The notes under the pieces: generated by a model
What the model was told of the DNA's origin: nothing
What the model saw: only the letters and a program-made list of their open reading frames with translations
Database searches by the model: none
Translations under genes and position numbers: made by a program
Part shown: positions 4,100 to 15,072 of the stretch, in pieces
How positions within the stretch are numbered: the stretch's first letter is position 1
Layout: each line of letters begins with the position of its first letter
From: Desulfovibrionaceae bacterium
Lineage (GTDB): Bacteria; Desulfobacterota; Desulfovibrionia; Desulfovibrionales; Desulfovibrionaceae
Assembly (NCBI GenBank): GCA_015233395.1
Contig: JADFXV010000022.1
Span: 1-40,691, forward strand
Length of the DNA: 40,691 nucleotides
Direction: 5' to 3'

Positions 4100-4230
4100 T
4101 GCCAGAGCGCCCTATGAACGGTATTGCACATGTCATTTCCTTCGCTGATTGACACGGACAAATCGAATTCGAGGGCTTCGTCCGTGTGGAGGCATAATCT
4201 TTTGTTGTGAATCCTGCTGCTTCGCAGACA

Positions 4231-4352
4231 TTACTGGGAGCAAAAAGGATCTTACTTTTTGCTCCCAGCGGCGGACGCCGCTTGGCCCTGCCAAAAGCGG
4301 GGCCGTACTTATCAATGGGAGCGCAAAAATGAAGATATTTTCTGCTCCCATG
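4231..4352 (+). repeat. F1 composite element (hairpin A - GC linker - hairpin B)
   Basis: Hairpin A has perfect 14-bp arms (4234-4247 CTGGGAGCAAAAAG and 4255-4268) with a 7-nt loop. A GC-rich linker rich in short inverted repeats follows (4269-4305), then GTACTTATCA, then hairpin B (4315-4351) with the GAAGA loop. The same order is found inverted at 6121-6243 and truncated at 14791-14878. Confidence 0.85.
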
Positions 4353-4758
4353 AATAATTCACGCCATCCGGAGACGGATTTCCACTCGCCTCTTAAGCGT
4401 AGGAATGTAACTTTGTATGCAGCGCGCCTAGCGCATTTTATCGGTGATGTCCAGCAACTTGAGGCCACTTGGCGACCGTTGGATCGTCCGGACGCTCGTC
4501 CGGGAGAGCTTCGAACCTTGACGCCGCGTCGAAGCGGCTGAACTCCGGATGAAGGCCGCCTGTCAGTTCATTTTCTTCGGCAAAGAAAACATTGTATTTT
4601 CTCAAAGGAAGAGAGGAAATCAGGAGGAGAATACTTTGTGAGATGGCGGTTATGCATTGGCTCTATCCGGTATTGCTCTGGAAAATTACCGGATTGAACA
4701 AAATGATGATGTGCGCAAGACATTTCACTGCGTTGCGACATCCGTTGATCTGCCTTTT

Positions 4759-4807
4759 ATTACCGGGAGCAAATAGTATTTTCCTTTTTACCGCCAGGGC
4801 GGAGCCG
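4759..4807 (+). repeat. degenerate F1 hairpin A
   Basis: It begins ATTACCGGGAGCAAATAGTA like the copy at 14795, but the right arm is destroyed (TTTTTACCGCCAG instead of TTTTTGCTCCCGG). It ends next to the stop codon of the heme-oxygenase-domain gene. Confidence 0.6.
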
Positions 4808-6088
4808 TTACTTTACGGCCTTGACGGACAACTCCTGGCGTATGGCGGCTAAATGTTCATGAATGGCTTCCACCCAGACCCGGGGAAAACGATTCGGATC
4901 GACCAGCCAGGACAGAAGGCTCGCGATAGAGCCTTCCAAACAGTCCGCCTCGTCCACGACGGCGGAGACCAAGAGGGTGATCGCCTCGGCGCAAGCGAAG
5001 TCGCTCAAGCGTCCGCAGGCTTGCTGAAAATTTCTTTCATGCTCCCGGCGGCGCTCCCGGGAGAGACGGGCGTCGATCTCGCCGCGTATCTTCTTGGCGG
5101 CAGCGTCAAGCATCGACGACCTCTCCGGCTGACCGGTCCCGGCGGCGAGCAGCTCCTGCGCCAGAATTTCCATGTGCCGCGCCAGGAGTATACGCGGCAT
5201 ACCCCGAGCCGAAAGAACCTGTCCCAGCCAGTCCACCTGAGCCTGCATGGCTTCGGTTCCAAGTTCGGGCAATGTGGCCAGCCATGCTCCGTCGGTGTCG
5301 GCGAAACGGCGTCCGCGTTGGCCAAAACGGTAGATAAAATATGGAAATTCAGCCAAACAGCGTTCGGAGGCCCGAAGCACGGCGATCAAGTCTCGTCTAT
5401 CCTGGGGAACCGGATGATCTCCCGCCTCGGGATTGAAAGCCGCAGCGACGTACTGCATGGCGGCGCGATCCAAGGGCCACAGCGCTTCGAAGGCTTCGAG
5501 CAAGCATTGGAAGACAACGCGGGCGGTCGCGCCCATGGCCTTGACCTGTTCGCTATCCGTCACGCAGTCGTCTAGCGCCGCGGCGGCGCGCTCCCACTTT
5601 GCCGGCCCCTGACCGCTATGGCGGGACAGGTAGGAGAGGCCATGTCCAGGGGATAAGCCCAGCGCCTCCATGGCCAAAGGCGCCAGGATGACCGCTCCCT
5701 TGGTGGAGCCGCCGAGCACGTAGAGGCCGCCGAGCAGAGCAACGGGGTTGTCCTTGGACATGAGCAGAATGTGGGAAGCTGCCCGCAGAGCCGCTTGCGC
5801 CGCTTTTGGCGCTTCAGGCGCGAGCTTCCAGCGGAAGGCGTCGTTGTCTTCCAGAAGCTCCGGGAGCCGGCGCAAGTCTTCAGACCATACTTGAGAAACC
5901 AGAGGATGATCGCAGGCGTCGAGACGGCTCTCCAAGGCGGCGTGGATCACCGCCATGACACGGATGTACCCCACGTAGGCGTCCGGATGGATCGATTTGT
6001 CCAAAAGGGATTTGGCGAAGGGCGTCGTCTCGATTCGGGCATGGAGGTCCCTGGTGGCGGCTCGCAGGGCCTCGGTGGCGGTGGCCAT
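4808..6088 (-). CDS. heme oxygenase-like domain protein with long C-terminal extension
   Basis: 426 aa. The first 190 residues match bacterial heme oxygenases. LRAATRDLHARIE (8-20) corresponds to the proximal-His helix, and LYVLGGSTKGAVI corresponds to the glycine-rich distal helix, normally LYVLEGSTLGG. Two positions of that helix differ (Glu to Gly, Leu-Gly to Lys-Gly), so heme turnover is not assured. Residues 190-426 are an unrecognised, mostly helical extension. The open frame continues 78 codons further upstream, but that part only translates the F1 repeat; ATG 6088 has GGAGGAG about 10 nt before it. The gene diverges from the B12-sensor/kinase pair, suggesting a shared signalling context. 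Oxygen-dependent heme cleavage would be unusual in a strict anaerobe. The domain could instead bind heme or bilin as a sensor. Confidence 0.75.
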   Translation of the reverse strand: MATATEALRAATRDLHARIETTPFAKSLLDKSIHPDAYVGYIRVMAVIHAALESRLDACDHPLVSQVWSEDLRRLPELLEDNDAFRWKLAPEAPKAAQAALRAASHILLMSKDNPVALLGGLYVLGGSTKGAVILAPLAMEALGLSPGHGLSYLSRHSGQGPAKWERAAAALDDCVTDSEQVKAMGATARVVFQCLLEAFEALWPLDRAAMQYVAAAFNPEAGDHPVPQDRRDLIAVLRASERCLAEFPYFIYRFGQRGRRFADTDGAWLATLPELGTEAMQAQVDWLGQVLSARGMPRILLARHMEILAQELLAAGTGQPERSSMLDAAAKKIRGEIDARLSRERRREHERNFQQACGRLSDFACAEAITLLVSAVVDEADCLEGSIASLLSWLVDPNRFPRVWVEAIHEHLAAIRQELSVKAVK

Positions 6089-6120
6089 GGCGTATGCTCC
6101 TCCGAGTTTTGGCGAAATAT

Positions 6121-6243
6121 TAATGGAAGCAGAAAATTTCTTCATTTTCGCGCTCCCATTTATAAGAACGGCCACGCCATTGGCGTGGCCCGGCGGCGTC
6201 TGCCGCGGGAGCAAAAAGTTAAAAACTTTTTGCTCCCAGTAAT
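6121..6243 (-). repeat. F1 composite element, inverted, in a divergent promoter region
   Basis: Read on the minus strand: hairpin A (6207-6237, 14-bp arms), a GC linker containing a perfect inverted repeat GGCCACGCCA/TGGCGTGGCC (6170-6190), then hairpin B (6123-6159) with the GAAGA loop. It lies 33 bases upstream of the heme-oxygenase-like start, so transcripts of that gene could include it. Confidence 0.85.
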
Positions 6244-6303
6244 ACCTGCCAAGTATGATGAATGACGGCTTTGCGGTCAAGGCGGAATGGGGGCGGAAAT
6301 CGC

Positions 6304-6331
6304 TTGTCAGTCCCTCCGGCATTATTGTAAA
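6304..6331 (+). promoter_or_regulatory. candidate sigma-70 promoter for the B12-sensor/kinase operon
   Basis: TTGTCA (6304-6309), 16-nt spacer, TGTAAA (6326-6331), about 100 nt upstream of ATG 6434. Matches are 5/6 and 4/6 to the consensus. This is sequence resemblance only. Confidence 0.3.
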
Positions 6332-6433
6332 TTCCTAAACGTCGTTCATCGAGGGCGCCATCTCCCAAGGACGTCGAGCGCACACCTCGGATTTACGGCG
6401 GACGGCAAAATCATGTCATCTTGCGGGAGTGTT

Positions 6434-7123
6434 ATGGCGCTTGAAAATTTGCCCCAGGACAAGCGCCCCAATCCCGGGTTGAACCAACTGGCCTCCCGCT
6501 ACATGGAGTCTCTGCTGCAAGGAGACCGAAGGACGGCGAGCGCCATGATCCTGGAAGCCGTGGATCGGGGGACGCCCGTGGGGAGCGTGTACCTGGATGT
6601 GTTCCAACCGGTGCAACGCGAGGTGGGGCGCCTATGGCAGACGAACGCGATTACCGTCGCCGTGGAGCATTTTTGCACGGCGGTGACTCAGATGGTCATG
6701 TCCCAGCTTTTTCCCCGCATCATCACGGAAAAGAAAAACGGGTTGTCCATGGTGGGGTGCTGCGCCGGCCACGAGCTTCATGAACTCGGAATCCGCATGG
6801 TCTGCGACTTTTTTGAGATGGAGTCCTGGGACACATACTACATGGGGGCCAATTGCCCCTCCGCCGCGGTGATCGAAACTCTGGCAAGCAGAAACGCAGA
6901 CGTTTTATGTCTCTCCGTAACCATGCAGCACAATGTATCCCAGGCTAAGACGTTGATCCAAGAAGCGTTGAAACGCTTTCCGCAAACAAAGATTTTGGCC
7001 GGCGGTTTTCCTTTTCTCCTCAATCCGGACTTGGCCCGGAGCATCGGGGCTCATGGATGGGCCAGGGACGCGAGGGAAGGCGTGGACTTGGCGGCCTCAT
7101 GGCGCCGGAGCAAACAAGTATGA
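6434..7123 (+). CDS. cobalamin-binding protein with CarH-type Wx9EH motif
   Basis: 229 aa. A helical cap domain (about 15-95) includes W68, nine residues, then E78-H79. This is the Wx9EH pattern that marks the adenosylcobalamin light-sensing domain of CarH-type regulators. The B12-binding Rossmann domain (about 104-215) shows ELHELG (114-119), i.e. ExHxxG with H116 as expected lower cobalt ligand, then LSVTMQHN and AGGFPF, the usual SxT and GG blocks. There is no MerR-type DNA-binding domain, so output must be through a partner. The next gene, a PAS histidine kinase, overlaps it by ATGA. The residue after W68 is Gln; as I recall, T. thermophilus CarH has a His there that binds cobalt after light, so the photochemistry may differ. 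Start chosen at ATG 6434 with GGGAG close upstream; ATG 6413 and 6287 are also in frame. Confidence 0.85.
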   Translation: MALENLPQDKRPNPGLNQLASRYMESLLQGDRRTASAMILEAVDRGTPVGSVYLDVFQPVQREVGRLWQTNAITVAVEHFCTAVTQMVMSQLFPRIITEKKNGLSMVGCCAGHELHELGIRMVCDFFEMESWDTYYMGANCPSAAVIETLASRNADVLCLSVTMQHNVSQAKTLIQEALKRFPQTKILAGGFPFLLNPDLARSIGAHGWARDAREGVDLAASWRRSKQV

Positions 7124-8601
7124 GCGACAGCCAGGACGGATTGGTCCTGTCGTGCGACTTTCAGGGGCGCATCCTGCGGGTTTTTCACGACTCAACGGGC
7201 ATTTTCGGTCCCGGTCTCGTGGGCCGGGAACTTTCAGAGCTAGTGGACCAATCCATGCTGTCCAAGCTCGAATCTTTTGTCAGCGAGACCAGGCGAAAAG
7301 GGTCGACGTTTTCCTGGGAATTGACCATGCTTTGGGGCGACCGGTATGAAGTGATGAACTTCTTCGGTTTGGTCAAACATGGCTCTTTGTGCATCATCAT
7401 CTCCAAGTCGCCTCAGAACATTTTCTCCCTCTACGACGAGATGCTGGAAATCATCAACGAGCAGGGCGCCCAACTGCGGGCCCTGCAACAAACATCGTCC
7501 ATAGCGCAAAGAGTGACCGATCCCAAGGCCTTAGACGAGTTCATGAAGCTCAATAATGAGTTGGTGAACGAGCAACGGGAACTGAGTTTGAGCAATGCCC
7601 GTCTGGCCCAACAGGAAGCCCGTTTCCGAAAGATCATCCAGGAAAACCCCGACCTGATCCTTGTCCTGAACAAGCGAGGTCAATTGCTGTTTCTCAACGA
7701 CGCGGCCCAATCCTTTCTGGGCATTGCCCCGCAAGAATTGATCGGAACCGGTCTCAGCCCGATTTTTCTGATCAAAGGCGGCGAAGAGATTGACCTGAGG
7801 GATAAGGATGGGGTCTTTCACACCATGGACCCACGCGAGGTCGAGGCCATCTGGGACGATAAACCCGCCCGGCTCATTTACCTGCGCGACATCACCGAAC
7901 GCAAGCAGATAGAGATTTTGCGGGAGGATATCGACCGTATCTCGCGCCACGATCTCAAGACTCCTCTGAACGGGATCATAAGTTTCCCACAGCTTCTTTT
8001 GATGGACGACAATCTGACAGAAGAGCAACGCCAGATTATCGAGATGATTCAAGACTCTGGCTACAGAATGCTCGACCTCATCAACTTGTCGCTGCATCTT
8101 TTCCAGATGGAAATAGGGTCGTATGAACCAACCCTCGCGCCGGTCGATATCCTTCCGGTGCTACGCAGCGTATTGGTCGAATTGCGATCGCCGCTTGAGC
8201 AAAAGGATACATCCGTGGACGTTTTCCTGTCCAACTCACCTGTGAAGGAACATGATTCCTTTGTTGTCATGGGTGAGGAGATTCTCTGCCATTCCATCTT
8301 GTCAAATCTTGTCAAGAACGCAATTGAGGCGTCTTCGCCCGGGAAGACCATTTCTATCTATTTCGATCAAAACTCTTGGCGCACGGTTCGTGTCCTCAAT
8401 AGCGGCGAGATTCCGCCAGAATTTTTGGATCGTTTTTTCGAGAAATACGCCACGCACGGCAAGAAGGGAGGGACAGGCCTGGGAACTTACTCGGCCAAAC
8501 TCATGATCAAAACCATGGGCGGCGATCTTGAGTTGGACGTTTCAGCGCCGGGGCAGGTGGCGGTGATTGCAAGGTGGCCAGTGGCGCCGGATGTGAAATG
8601 A
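7120..8601 (+). CDS. PAS-PAS sensor histidine kinase coupled to the B12-binding protein
   Basis: 493 aa, no membrane segment, so cytoplasmic. An N-terminal PAS-like domain (about 5-105) is followed by a helical linker (105-165), a second PAS domain (165-265, ending YLRDITERKQ), a HisKA domain with SRHDLKTPLNGI (phosphoacceptor H277), and an HATPase domain with N-box LVKNAIEA and G-box GGTGLGTYSAKLM. The start at 7120 is set by the ATGA overlap with the upstream stop and by CCGGAG 9 nt before. The overlap implies coupled translation and suggests that the cobalamin protein is its sensory input. No receiver domain is fused. The nearest response regulator (10922-11329) is in another operon on the opposite strand, so the cognate partner is uncertain. 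Confidence 0.9.
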   Translation: MSDSQDGLVLSCDFQGRILRVFHDSTGIFGPGLVGRELSELVDQSMLSKLESFVSETRRKGSTFSWELTMLWGDRYEVMNFFGLVKHGSLCIIISKSPQNIFSLYDEMLEIINEQGAQLRALQQTSSIAQRVTDPKALDEFMKLNNELVNEQRELSLSNARLAQQEARFRKIIQENPDLILVLNKRGQLLFLNDAAQSFLGIAPQELIGTGLSPIFLIKGGEEIDLRDKDGVFHTMDPREVEAIWDDKPARLIYLRDITERKQIEILREDIDRISRHDLKTPLNGIISFPQLLLMDDNLTEEQRQIIEMIQDSGYRMLDLINLSLHLFQMEIGSYEPTLAPVDILPVLRSVLVELRSPLEQKDTSVDVFLSNSPVKEHDSFVVMGEEILCHSILSNLVKNAIEASSPGKTISIYFDQNSWRTVRVLNSGEIPPEFLDRFFEKYATHGKKGGTGLGTYSAKLMIKTMGGDLELDVSAPGQVAVIARWPVAPDVK

Positions 8602-8617: not shown

Positions 8618-8652
8618 CGGGAACGCGAAAATGAAGACATTTTCCGCTCCCG
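8618..8652 (+). repeat. F1 hairpin B, copy at a convergent gene junction
   Basis: CGGGAACGCGAAAAT, GAAGA loop, ATTTTCCGCTCCCG. It fills the 51-nt space between the convergent kinase genes and abuts the stop codon (8653-8655) of the leftward one, where it could act as a transcript end or stabiliser for either. Confidence 0.8.
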
Positions 8653-10917
8653 TTAATGAATTTCATCTTGGCAGGACAATTCACCCGCTGCGGGGAACAC
8701 GAGCGTAAACACCGCGCCGTTTCTGTTTTCGGCGAGCATCGTCCCATGAAGTTGGTTCGTCAGAGTGCTCACCAAATTTATGCCGAGGCTCGCCGTTCGC
8801 TTCAAATCAAAGCCATCCGGGAGACCATGACCGTTATCGCCGACTCTGACCGTGATCATGTCGTTTTTGCAGACGATGCTTACACTTATCCGCCCGTCAT
8901 CTTTCCCGCGAAACCCATGCCGTATAGCGTTTGTCACCAGTTCATTGAGAATAAGGGCGAACGGGATGGCTTTATCGATGGTGACGGGGGCATACGATAG
9001 ATCAAGATCCAAACCAATGCCGTTCTTATGAGTATTATATGAATTAATCAGGCGAGGGACAAAAAACTTTACGTAATGCCTCAAGTCTATTTGGGAAAAG
9101 TTTTCCGACTTGTAAAGTTCCTCATGGATGGCCGCCATGGAGGCGACGCGATTTTGGCTTTCTTTTAGAGAGATTTCGACTTCGGGATTGTTCTTATGCT
9201 CCACTTGCAGATGGAGCAGGCTGGAGATAATTTGCAGATTGTTCTTAACTCGGTGATGGATCTCCTTGAGTAATACATCTTTCTCTTTCAAGGATTCAGA
9301 CAGTCGTTCTTCATTTTTCTTACGCTCGGTGATGTCGCTGATGAAACCTTCATAGTGCAGAAGATTCCCCCTCGAGTCACGGACAGCCCGCATGGAAAGG
9401 TCTCCCCATATGATTGAATGATCCTTACGGAAAAGTTTGACCTCCACACTGATTGCAGATTTTCTCTCCAACATTTCTAATATTTCCATGCGATCATTTC
9501 TGTTTACATAATGCTTTAATCCAATGTCTTGCATATTTTCCATAAAGTCTTGAACTGAGTCGTAACCACTTATTTCGGCAAGTCGAATATTTGCCGACAA
9601 ACAGCGTCCCTCGGGCGAGGACTGAAAAATGCCGAGTGGCGCGTATTCTATAAGCTCCCGATTGCTTTTTTCAAGATTGCGTACTGCCTCCTCGGCCCGC
9701 TTGCGCTCTGTGATATCGATTCCAATGCCAGTGAAATACTTCCGTCCTTCAATCTCCAACAGCACTGCAGTGAAGTAGAAAGGTATTTTTTCACCACTCT
9801 TGGTCTGCAACTCGGCTTCTTCAGAGCCGCATCCGTCACGCATGACGCGATTGATGGCCTGGGAGATTTTCTCCTGAGTCGGTTGGTCATCTTTGTACCA
9901 GTCCAGCAGGTGCATTTGGGCAAGCTCATCGCCAGAATATCCAGTGATTGTTTCATGCTGCTTATTCCAGCGAATGAGTAAACCAGTATCATCGTAAAGA
10001 TAGAGCAGGCCCGGAACGCTATCGAGCACGGCGTTTGTAAACTTACGTTCTTCAGCCAATACGAGTTCGGCCTGTTTCCGCTTCGTGATGTCTCGGAATG
10101 TGCCTTCGACTCCGATCGCTTTCCCCGCTTTGTCCAGGATGAGTCTTGAAGCCGTTGCGACATGCACGGGGCTGCCGTCTTTGCGCTTCAAGATCACCTC
10201 GTAGTCGCGCACTTCGCCGCGTTCCTTCAAAATGGAGAGAAATTTCGAGCGTTGTTCGGAATGCATCCAGAAGGACTCATTGGGTCTCCCCAACATCTCT
10301 CGCTCGGAGTCATACCCCAAAAGTTTGATTCCGGATGGGCTGACCATGTCGAGCATACCCCGCGCATCGGTGCGGTAGAACACGTCGGTGATGTTCTCAA
10401 TGACCGCGCGGTATTTTGCCTCGCTGTCGCGCAGCGCCTGTGCGGCCTGTTTCAATCCGGTGATATCTTCGATGCTTGCAAGGACGCAATGCCGGGCGCC
10501 AATGTTCAGAGGCTTGACGGCGAATTTAACCCAAAAAGCGTCCGGGCTTTGGTCGGTGTGAAAAAAGGACTCGCCGCACAATTCCGCAAAATCGCCTTTT
10601 CCTTCGAGCGCTTTTTGAATCGCATTGTTCAGGGAACACTTTTTACAATCCTTGGAATAGCCGCATCCTTTGGGCTCCAGGTGACGATTGCAGCAAGTAA
10701 AGAGATCGCCGCAGCAAAAATTCTTCAATTCCTGGATATTCGATTTGAATGTCGCCTCGGCGACGGGATTGGCGAAAATGACTTTTCGGTCGCTGTCGAT
10801 GAGGAAAATACTAACGGGGGAGGCTTCAAGAATTGAGCGCAGGCTTGTTTGAACGTCCAGCAGAGAGGTATTGTTTATTTGAGTAAGATTATTCATACTG
10901 CTGACTGTCTTTGGCAT
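8653..10917 (-). CDS. four-PAS sensor histidine kinase (HisKA_2 type) with Cys-rich first PAS
   Basis: 754 aa, soluble. PAS1 (about 20-160) contains a Cys cluster: CCGDLFTCC, then GCGYSKDCKKC, eight cysteines within about 30 residues. PAS2, PAS3 and PAS4 follow, each ending in the typical DITxRK motif. The kinase core has EIHHRVKNNLQIISSLL (phosphoacceptor His at 554/555), characteristic of HisKA_2/HWE-like kinases, then an HATPase with NELVTNAIRHGF and DNGHGLP. The cysteines could bind a metal or Fe-S cluster, or act as a redox switch; that is inference. ATG 10917 starts 4 nt after the stop of the upstream response regulator, so the two are one operon. Alternative starts are 10935 and 10896. 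Confidence 0.9.
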   Translation of the reverse strand: MPKTVSSMNNLTQINNTSLLDVQTSLRSILEASPVSIFLIDSDRKVIFANPVAEATFKSNIQELKNFCCGDLFTCCNRHLEPKGCGYSKDCKKCSLNNAIQKALEGKGDFAELCGESFFHTDQSPDAFWVKFAVKPLNIGARHCVLASIEDITGLKQAAQALRDSEAKYRAVIENITDVFYRTDARGMLDMVSPSGIKLLGYDSEREMLGRPNESFWMHSEQRSKFLSILKERGEVRDYEVILKRKDGSPVHVATASRLILDKAGKAIGVEGTFRDITKRKQAELVLAEERKFTNAVLDSVPGLLYLYDDTGLLIRWNKQHETITGYSGDELAQMHLLDWYKDDQPTQEKISQAINRVMRDGCGSEEAELQTKSGEKIPFYFTAVLLEIEGRKYFTGIGIDITERKRAEEAVRNLEKSNRELIEYAPLGIFQSSPEGRCLSANIRLAEISGYDSVQDFMENMQDIGLKHYVNRNDRMEILEMLERKSAISVEVKLFRKDHSIIWGDLSMRAVRDSRGNLLHYEGFISDITERKKNEERLSESLKEKDVLLKEIHHRVKNNLQIISSLLHLQVEHKNNPEVEISLKESQNRVASMAAIHEELYKSENFSQIDLRHYVKFFVPRLINSYNTHKNGIGLDLDLSYAPVTIDKAIPFALILNELVTNAIRHGFRGKDDGRISVSIVCKNDMITVRVGDNGHGLPDGFDLKRTASLGINLVSTLTNQLHGTMLAENRNGAVFTLVFPAAGELSCQDEIH

Positions 10918-10921
10918 TTTG

Positions 10922-11329
10922 CTAGTCGGCGCCACTGCTTGCCCAGCCTGTTATTTTACGATTTATACTAAGGCAACGTTCTATATAATCTGCAACATCT
11001 TCACTGTTGATCGGTTTTTGCAAAAACAAATCCGCATCAAATTTTATCATGTCAGATATGTCTTCGACACCAACGACAGCAGACATTATAATGATCGGCA
11101 GACTTGCCAATTCTGAGTGCCCGCGTAATGTCTTAATTAACATCTTGCCATCCATCTTGGGCATCATGACGTCAGTGATGAGGATGTCAATACGGTTGTC
11201 AGCCAATAGGGTCTGATATGCATGCTCGCCATCCGGACTGACGAGAGGGGTATGCCCAAGTTTTTCGACGATTTTATAGCAAATGATTCGACTTGTGGGG
11301 TCATCTTCCGCAATAAGAATGCGCGCCAT
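10922..11329 (-). CDS. single-domain response regulator (CheY-like receiver)
   Basis: 135 aa, consisting only of a receiver domain. The acidic pair is E8-D9-D10, the phosphoacceptor D53 lies in LITDVMMPKMDG, and K105 in FLQKPI. There is no output domain, so it works by protein contact or as a relay. A strong ribosome binding site AGGAGG lies 7 nt before ATG 11329. The four-PAS kinase follows 4 nt downstream in the same operon and is the probable phosphodonor. A 9-bp inverted repeat AAGCCGGCC/GGCCGGCTT (11357-11376) lies in the leader just upstream. Confidence 0.92.
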   Translation of the reverse strand: MARILIAEDDPTSRIICYKIVEKLGHTPLVSPDGEHAYQTLLADNRIDILITDVMMPKMDGKMLIKTLRGHSELASLPIIIMSAVVGVEDISDMIKFDADLFLQKPINSEDVADYIERCLSINRKITGWASSGAD

Positions 11330-14752: not shown

Positions 14753-15072
14753 GGAAACTCCTTAACGCTTAAGGCGATTTATTCAACAATGTATTACCGG
14801 GAGCAAAAAGTATTTTACTTTTTGCTCCCGGCGGAGGACTCCGCTCGTCTTGCTCCTCGCGGGGCCATACTTGTAAACGGGGGAACGCCCCCATGTTTCG
14901 GCGTCCCAATTCCTTTAGATTGCTGGACTGGCGAATGGCTGGCGGACGAGGTCCTTGCCTTCGCGACGGAGGCTACGGGCAATCCGTTGCCCGTGGCTTG
15001 GCCCGCATCCGTCGGCAGGGAAAGGACGATAGCGTCATCCTTCGAAAGCCCGTGACGCTGGAGACTACCTTT
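14753..15072. other. intergenic stretch holding a truncated F1 composite
   Basis: F1 hairpin A and its linker occupy 14791-14878. A GGGGG/CCCCC hairpin follows at about 14879-14892. The missing 5' part of glmS is not here. No gene is supported. Confidence 0.5.
14791..14878 (+). repeat. F1 composite, 3' truncated (hairpin A plus linker)
   Basis: Hairpin A is the best in the window: 16-bp perfect arms, CCGGGAGCAAAAAGTA (14797-14812) and its complement (14816-14831), with a 3-nt loop. The GC linker ends GGGGCCATACTTGTAAAC, aligning with GGGGCCGTACTTATCAAT at 4300. Hairpin B is absent. It lies 40 bases upstream of the damaged glmS start. Confidence 0.8.

Follow-up and report, generated by a model that had tools for sequence, protein, structure and literature searches.

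What does a cobalamin-based photoreceptor module control when it has no DNA-binding domain, and why does a heme oxygenase gene stand beside it? The question is raised by contig JADFXV010000022.1 of a Desulfovibrionaceae bacterium (assembly GCA_015233395.1), of which positions 1 to 40,691, 40,691 nucleotides in all, are called the window here. In the window, the gene of a B12-binding protein overlaps that of a PAS histidine kinase, and a gene for a heme oxygenase with a predicted globin domain diverges from the pair. We propose that these genes encode a split photocobilin-type light sensor driving a two-component PAS kinase in trans, a reading that we regard as moderately probable and in which both the light response and the pigment binding are predicted.

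The B12 protein and its kinase partner

6434 to 7123, forward strand: cobalamin-binding photoreceptor-type protein, 229 amino acids, with a PF02607 cap, a PF02310 B12 domain and the motifs described below, and no globin domain.
7120 to 8601, forward strand: histidine kinase, 493 amino acids, with an N-terminal PAS and signal helix (residues 1-165), a second PAS (about 167-250), HisKA with H277, and HATPase_c; ATGA overlap with the B12 gene.
7120 to 7614, forward strand: conserved partner domain (PAS fold plus signal helix), which follows the B12 module in 73 of 80 related loci.

Pfam recognizes a PF02607 helical cap (E 3.4e-16) and a PF02310 B12-binding domain (E 3.1e-20) in the B12 protein and nothing else, and GGGAG lies immediately 5′ of its ATG at 6434. 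The protein carries the motifs W68-Q69-x8-E78-H79 and E114-x-H116-xx-G119. Each residue named in an earlier note on this DNA (W68, Gln69, E78, H79, E114, H116, G119 and H277 of the kinase) lies at the position given there, and the ATGA overlap that it described between the B12 gene (6434-7123) and the kinase gene (7120-8601) is present. By its cap, its Rossmann B12 domain, W-x9-EH and E-x-H the protein belongs to the CarH-type photoreceptor modules for adenosylcobalamin (AdoCbl), and its function is predicted from them. Identity as a CarH repressor was rejected: Pfam finds no MerR domain, as the earlier note had stated, and the NCBIfam CarH model (NF052513) gives E 1.9e-12 and 47 bits against a 400-bit cut-off. 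Judged by phmmer against the PDB, the nearest solved relatives are photocobilins (8j2x and 8j2w, E 1.5e-24; 8j2y, 5.9e-20), followed by 8jbs (5.3e-16), with CarH entries well behind at about 1e-6. The earlier description of a CarH-type module without a DNA-binding domain, paired with a kinase, is thus borne out in the pairing, both by gene order and by a natural fusion described below, and has to be amended in its kinship, which is to photocobilins rather than to CarH.

The earlier note had also cautioned that the Gln after W68 might speak against light as the signal. This caution falls, because SasPcob shares the Gln (compare LWQANRWSVAQEH of SasPcob with LWQTNAITVAVEH of the window's protein) and is photoactive, responding to green light with a water/hydroxide-ligated light state rather than the bis-His state of CarH, according to the part of PMC10979010 drawn on here.

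We compared 80 loci, the best 80 of 546 relatives retrieved with a pattern containing E[LYF]H..G. The Trp, E78, H79, E114 and H116 are invariant in 80 of 80; since E114, H116 and G119 lie inside the pattern that selected the loci, only the Trp and the EH pair are independent evidence of conservation. Position 69 is Gln in 67 loci, His in 6, Glu in 3, Leu in 3 and Met in 1. The loci span records from Chloroflexi, Paenibacillus, Spirochaetales, Bacteroidales and Lokiarchaeota. Three contigs of Lokiarchaeota metagenome-assembled genomes (MAGs) and one record of Methanohalophilus (together L128, L147, L153 and L138) encode the B12 protein with a PAS-type partner, the partner match of L138 being short.

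The kinase has the boxes of an orthodox sensor kinase (H277, NLVKNA at 396 and GTGLGTY at 451), and Pfam assigns to it HisKA, HATPase_c and one PAS at about 167-250. Residues 1-127 gave no Pfam domain and no PDB sequence match; a further PAS, overlooked by Pfam, is recognized at residues 7-95 through its fold alone, in a predicted model with a mean pLDDT (predicted local distance difference test) of 88.4 and 138 PDB matches at E <= 1e-3. It is this N-terminal region that recurs beside the B12 module. A PAS-type partner domain was found in 76 of 80 loci, directly downstream of the B12 gene in 73, so that the objection raised in advance by the earlier note, that the two genes might never be neighbors, does not hold. 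The partner lies 530 bases behind the B12 gene in L127 and upstream of it in L144. Four loci are without it: in L103 the contig stops 99 bases past the gene, and L146, L148 and L165 have 2-6 kb with no partner. In a Desulfosporosinus locus (L166, 5854-7578) cap, B12 domain, HisKA and HATPase_c stand in a single chain, just a short stretch of which matches the partner profile.

The outputs attached to the partner domain are more diverse. Among 43 partners scanned by Pfam (the window's and 42 of the 75 partners listed), 38 carry HATPase_c, 35 HisKA, 5 GGDEF, 5 a receiver and 3 Hpt, and from these counts we conclude that, at the sequence level, a PAS-type domain appears to be the constant receiving partner of the B12 module while the output domain varies. 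At a threshold of E <= 1e-15, 39 of 297 genomes of the order encode the B12 protein (42 matches). By blastp, 30 of 40 loci of the order have a downstream partner, 19 with the N-terminal domain and 11 with the kinase core only; the remaining 10 have neither downstream, L076, which lies near a contig end, among them. Partners in the order include a hybrid kinase and diguanylate cyclases. No cognate response regulator gene is co-directional with or adjacent to the kinase gene in the window, where the genes downstream are a convergent pair at 8653-11329 (reverse strand) that code for a HisKA_2 kinase with four PAS domains and for a protein with one receiver domain.

Globins of the B12 module and the heme oxygenase fusion

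In most relatives the B12 module has a globin of its own. At 70 of 80 loci, at least 130 residues ahead of the B12 module in the same open reading frame (ORF) form a phycobiliprotein/photocobilin-like globin, and elsewhere a separate small protein precedes or follows the B12 gene. Pfam found nothing useful in this domain (profile A1, 13 members), and the narrow A1 reaches photocobilin only at E 0.9. Profile A4, made from 38 B12-associated globin domains, matches allophycocyanin (E 1.1e-9), the photocobilin globin (1.5e-7), smURFP (2.8e-7) and 8j2y (4.8e-5) in the PDB. The one invariant residue of A4, a Trp, aligns to SasPcob Trp296 and a conserved Asp to Asp270 (the numbering uses an offset of 6 counted from the phmmer alignment). 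Both residues contact biliverdin in the SasPcob crystal structure, and AbPcob, with His at the place of Asp270, binds biliverdin weakly, as described in the portion of PMC10979010 used. The scan yielded 70 fused N-terminal globins, and all 70 keep both the Asp and the Trp. Within the order, 28 of 32 globin genomes carry the B12 module (Fisher p 3e-26, a statistic that ignores kinship); 24 of these 28 have no heme oxygenase.

The window's genome (3.37 Mb in 158 contigs, 98.9% complete) departs from this arrangement. The globin profile that matches 32 other genomes of the order has no match in it, and the B12 protein, 229 amino acids of cap and B12 domain, does not contain the bilin-binding globin that defines a photocobilin polypeptide. 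That the window might keep the remains of a small globin gene was considered and rejected (tblastn best E 0.55). What the window does encode is a globin-like domain at the end of a heme oxygenase:

4808 to 6088, reverse strand: heme oxygenase with a C-terminal, predicted bilin-type globin, about 426 amino acids, divergent from the B12-kinase pair.
5486 to 6079, reverse strand: heme oxygenase domain PF01126 (Pfam 61.6 bits against a cut-off of 23), with the conserved His.
5066 to 5410, reverse strand: predicted phycobiliprotein/photocobilin-like globin domain, assigned by family profile and fold; an Asp codon at 5291-5293 and a Trp codon at 5228-5230 are the putative counterparts of SasPcob Asp270 and Trp296 through the family alignment.
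4811 to 5065, reverse strand: remaining C-terminal helices of the fusion, with no fold assigned.

This gene lay outside the coordinates of the earlier note and is added here; its start at 6088 was picked by alignment, in an ORF open to 6322. The heme oxygenase His, which we take to be the proximal ligand, aligns in 15 of 15 heme oxygenases compared. The C-terminal extension of 220 residues contains a domain found in 6 of 297 genomes of the order and 5 of 395 of the phylum, one of these 5 being the window's genome again, for 10 genomes in total, and always in the same ORF as the oxygenase. Plasmids gave no match for the domain, and phmmer with the window's own C-terminus found nothing. A4, which was built without the fusion domains, detects the domain in 4 of 10 fusion ORFs (E 1.9e-6, 2.6e-4, 9.5e-4 and 1.0e-3) with 0 matches in 1007 reversed ORFs, and hhalign of A4 with A3, the profile of heme oxygenase C-termini, gives E 1e-4 and a probability of 58% over 80 columns.

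An AlphaFold2 model of the window's domain, made from ten sequences, has a pLDDT of 89.6. In structural alignment photocobilin comes first (8j2w/8j2x, Z 11.4; 8j2x at 2.6 A over 109 residues), then allophycocyanins at Z 10.6-11.2 (phycobiliproteins overall 9.0-11.2) and 8j2y at 8.4, with the best unrelated row at 7.8 and heme globins among the matches listed at or below 7.0, on a scale where mostly helical models with Z under about 13 may show a common arrangement only. We assign the fold despite this caveat because the two bilin-globin families occupy ranks 1-14. Residues 136-220 of the model found no convincing structural match. In the alignment frame used for residues of the fusion domain (A6), all 10 members share D60 and 9 of the 10 share W81; the hidden Markov model (HMM) aligns the Asp with the bilin position in 5 members and has a gap there in the other 5, the window's included. 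Family profile matches (4 of 10 members) and predicted fold together identify the C-terminal domain as a globin of the bilin type, with biliverdin binding predicted; for the window's own globin the sequence evidence is weak, and the assignment leans on its relatives and the modeled fold.

The two transcription directions separate at one further feature:

6089 to 6433, no strand: divergent intergenic region with one promoter-like consensus site per strand and a palindromic repeat.

Repeats of palindromic sequence (GGGAGCAAAAAG...CTTTTTGCTCCC) lie between genes at 4207-4360, 4759-4797, 6114-6266, 8619-8657 and 14799-14829. The heme oxygenase/globin gene is flanked by copies that make up inverted arms of 118 nt (79%) and looks like a cassette bounded by repeats.

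Linkage, mechanism and rival explanations

The fusion and the B12 module keep company. The 6 fusion genomes of the order represent 6 genera and all belong to the 39 that encode the B12 module (Fisher p 3.6e-6, again ignoring kinship), and all 4 further fusion genomes in the phylum sample of 395 have it at E 6.5e-63 or better. The fusion adjoins the B12 gene in 4 of the 10. It is divergent from the B12-kinase pair in the window; on one strand the orders are fusion, B12, kinase, receiver protein in G371 (L186; a genome with 8% contamination, the genes lying on the same contig), B12, fusion, PAS-kinase in G321 (L188), and fusion, globin-B12, kinase with partner domain, LuxR-type regulator in G601 (L189). 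The B12 proteins of G371 (211 amino acids) and G321 (239) have no globin match, as in the window, and that of G601 has one. Fusions were present in 4 of 11 module genomes without the small globin versus 2 of 28 with it (p 0.04, suggestive only).

No PHY domain was found in any of the 10 fusion genomes, the window's included, and a heme oxygenase serving a bacteriophytochrome was for this reason rejected in the window's genome. The single-domain heme oxygenases of G093, G137 and G218 have PHY genes about 1 kb away, and phytochrome explains them; G234 and G244 have a single-domain heme oxygenase and neither PHY nor, at the order threshold, the B12 module. In G093, a relative at 66% identity, one strand of L041 (1289-8281) encodes in turn a globin, B12 protein, PAS-kinase, receiver, CheD, single heme oxygenase and bacteriophytochrome-GGDEF. 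Since phytochrome best explains this heme oxygenase, it was not counted as evidence for a split system; the presence of B12 and phytochrome sensing beside the chemotaxis gene CheD perhaps points to phototaxis.

The genes, motifs, domain identities, predicted folds, conserved pairing, co-occurrence and adjacency reported above are observed; cofactor binding, light response, protein contacts and the direction of the signal are what we infer in the following mechanism. In the dark, the B12 protein would hold AdoCbl with H116 as lower ligand and with W68, E78 and H79 fixing the adenosyl group at a dimer interface, and, docked on the N-terminal PAS of the kinase encoded by the shared transcript, would set the activity of that kinase. 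Green light would break the Co-C bond, and with loss of the adenosyl group the B12 dimer or its PAS contact would be altered, causing a switch in H277 autophosphorylation and in a response regulator. The heme oxygenase domain of the fusion would make biliverdin and its own globin domain would retain it; this globin, replacing the in-chain globin of photocobilins, would dock on the B12 protein as in SasPcob and add red-light sensitivity. Precedents come from the sections of PMC10979010 consulted, in which the turnover of the GGDEF domain attached to AbDPcob rises over 10-fold in the light, and isolated or stand-alone photocobilins alter the activity of a separate cyclase domain through protein contact, that is, in trans. 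The presence of a bilin partner can thus reverse the output, which makes it impossible to predict the direction of signaling here.

Heme oxygenase requires O2, which is odd in a presumed anaerobe. More tentatively, as a possible rather than a probable extension of the split-sensor reading, we suggest a self-loading bilin antenna acting in trans, in which one protein makes and keeps biliverdin and docks on a second protein, the AdoCbl photoreceptor in control of a kinase. Because the oxygenase needs O2, red-light sensitivity would be limited to conditions in which oxygen is present.

Besides the oxygen requirement and the caveat on Z-scores, a number of results weigh against a light sensor assembled from all three proteins. 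Some concern the cofactor. Neither cobalamin adenosyltransferase family (PF02572, PF01923) was found in the window's genome at the completeness given above; PF02572 is matched in 21 of the 39 B12-module genomes of the order, 20 of them above the cut-off. (The window's genome has 14 matched B12-binding domains.) Others concern the linkage: the fusion lies away from the B12 gene in 6 of 10 fusion genomes (about 30 kb off on one contig in G626, on other contigs in five), genomes with single-domain heme oxygenases have the B12 module in 2 of 5 (p 0.13), and 31 of the 39 B12-module genomes of the order have no PF01126 heme oxygenase, so that the B12-kinase pair usually works without one and the bilin part is optional, at least in the order. 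The rest concern the globin. With filters off, the fusion ORFs that A4 had not detected, 6 of 10, range from E 0.045 to 2.6, and the weakest of them, at 2.6, is that of the window; A1 gave no alignment to the heme oxygenase C-terminus, A3 found no photocobilin in the PDB, and Foldseek with the domain model returned nothing at E <= 0.001, globins being best at E 0.32. In 26 globins of the order the bilin Asp occurs in none (24 Asn, 1 Tyr, 1 Thr) and the Trp in all 26, and because of this missing Asp, association with a globin is by itself no proof of bilin binding. Examples of such globins lie at L041 7568-8053, L048 3068-3562 and L070 6089-7210; their sequences make a loss or change of chromophore possible.

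Several of these points would be expected if the B12-kinase pair were the whole sensor, responding to green light through AdoCbl only, with the heme oxygenase/globin doing another job such as releasing iron from heme or binding biliverdin without contact to the B12 protein. The 31 of 39 module genomes without heme oxygenase and the loss of the bilin Asp in the order globins fit such an arrangement, and the palindromic repeats flanking the heme oxygenase gene may mark it as a separate acquisition. We nevertheless consider it somewhat unlikely, as the B12 module is present in 10 of 10 fusion genomes and adjacent in 4, the model of the fused domain is nearest to photocobilin, and the fusion genomes hold no PHY-type phytochrome that could use the biliverdin. 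A still different possibility is that no light is sensed and the B12 protein reports cobalamin status (AdoCbl level, adenosylation, or damage by redox or O2) to the kinase. Organisms of this kind commonly inhabit dark places, and with neither PF02572 nor PF01923 found in the genome the bound cobalamin need not be AdoCbl; yet the tie to bilin-type globins suits a chromophore more than a nutrient sensor, the cluster of a close relative runs on into a bacteriophytochrome gene, and the adenosyl-pocket residues of photoactive relatives, so far as the cited part of PMC10979010 documents them, are fully kept, all of which makes a status sensor unlikely.

The globin fused to the oxygenase might, on the other hand, sense oxygen or heme, or help the oxygenase to release its product, instead of serving as a bilin subunit. 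Heme globins do match the model, at Z up to 7.0, and the sequence similarity to known photocobilins is weak. Photocobilins and phycobiliproteins score 8.4-11.4, however, above every heme globin listed, and the family has its Asp in 10 of 10 and its Trp in 9 of 10, those that the HMM was able to place falling on the bilin positions, so that we judge a function unrelated to bilin to be improbable.

Relation to known systems

CarH, photocobilins, photoglobins, and BBAG-2 globins with heme oxygenase and B12-binding proteins are already known. CarH shares W-x9-EH and the ExH motif with the window's B12 protein, and differs in having a MerR domain and, in TtCarH, a His, presumably the upper ligand, where the window's protein has Gln69. 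Bacteriophytochrome systems (BphO-BphP) likewise place a heme oxygenase beside a light-regulated signaling protein, whereas the window's genome has no PHY domain. Photoglobins reportedly are pairs of globin and B12-binding domains associated with signaling domains; the 350-amino-acid globin-B12 proteins of most relatives resemble this kind, whereas a globin of that sort, as domain or as gene, is missing from the window, and the one present there is fused to a heme oxygenase.

The photocobilins SasPcob and AbDPcob (PDB 8J2W, 8J2X and 8J2Y; PMC10979010, in the parts used) are alike in their B12 module and bilin-type globin partner, SasPcob also in its Gln after the Trp. Photocobilins may have their B12 domain at the N- or the C-terminal end, exist both as fusions and as stand-alone proteins, and control an enzyme either fused or in trans; those characterized are single chains with B12 and globin domains, the measured output is GGDEF, and the stand-alone role is called less clear by the authors (same parts of PMC10979010). 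In the window, by contrast, the B12 protein stands by itself, a heme oxygenase carries the globin, and a PAS histidine kinase in a chain of its own serves as the output. BBAG-2 and pre-2 clusters, as covered in the main text of PMC10151467, have a stereotyped B12-binding protein and biliverdin-binding globin, some with heme oxygenase, and BBAG-2 was shown to bind biliverdin; unlike the window they include a bilin reductase and are mostly from Myxococcales, and neither "histidine kinase" nor "fused" occurs in that main text. The main text of SignatureFinder (PMC11796333) gives HTH, DGC, BBD, GAF and MEDS as fused outputs and does not contain "kinase". In the open literature searched we recognized no report of a heme oxygenase/bilin-globin fusion or of a B12-protein/PAS-kinase pair, and the photoglobin study of Schneider et al. 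2022 may describe such neighborhoods; as far as searched, the fusion of a heme oxygenase to a bilin-type globin, its linkage to the B12 module and the trans-acting PAS partner domain are new.

The widespread pair of B12 protein and PAS partner, present in Lokiarchaeota too on three MAG contigs, appears to constitute a large signaling system, and none of the experiments described in the portions of the literature surveyed involved a kinase in it. A sensor divided by nature into one protein for B12, one for bilin and one for the kinase would show one signaling route for stand-alone receptors and would offer a modular green/red optogenetic kinase. It would also raise the question of why a presumed anaerobe keeps an O2-dependent pigment maker beside a light sensor; if the antenna reading is true, this presumably anaerobic bacterium would read light and oxygen as one signal.

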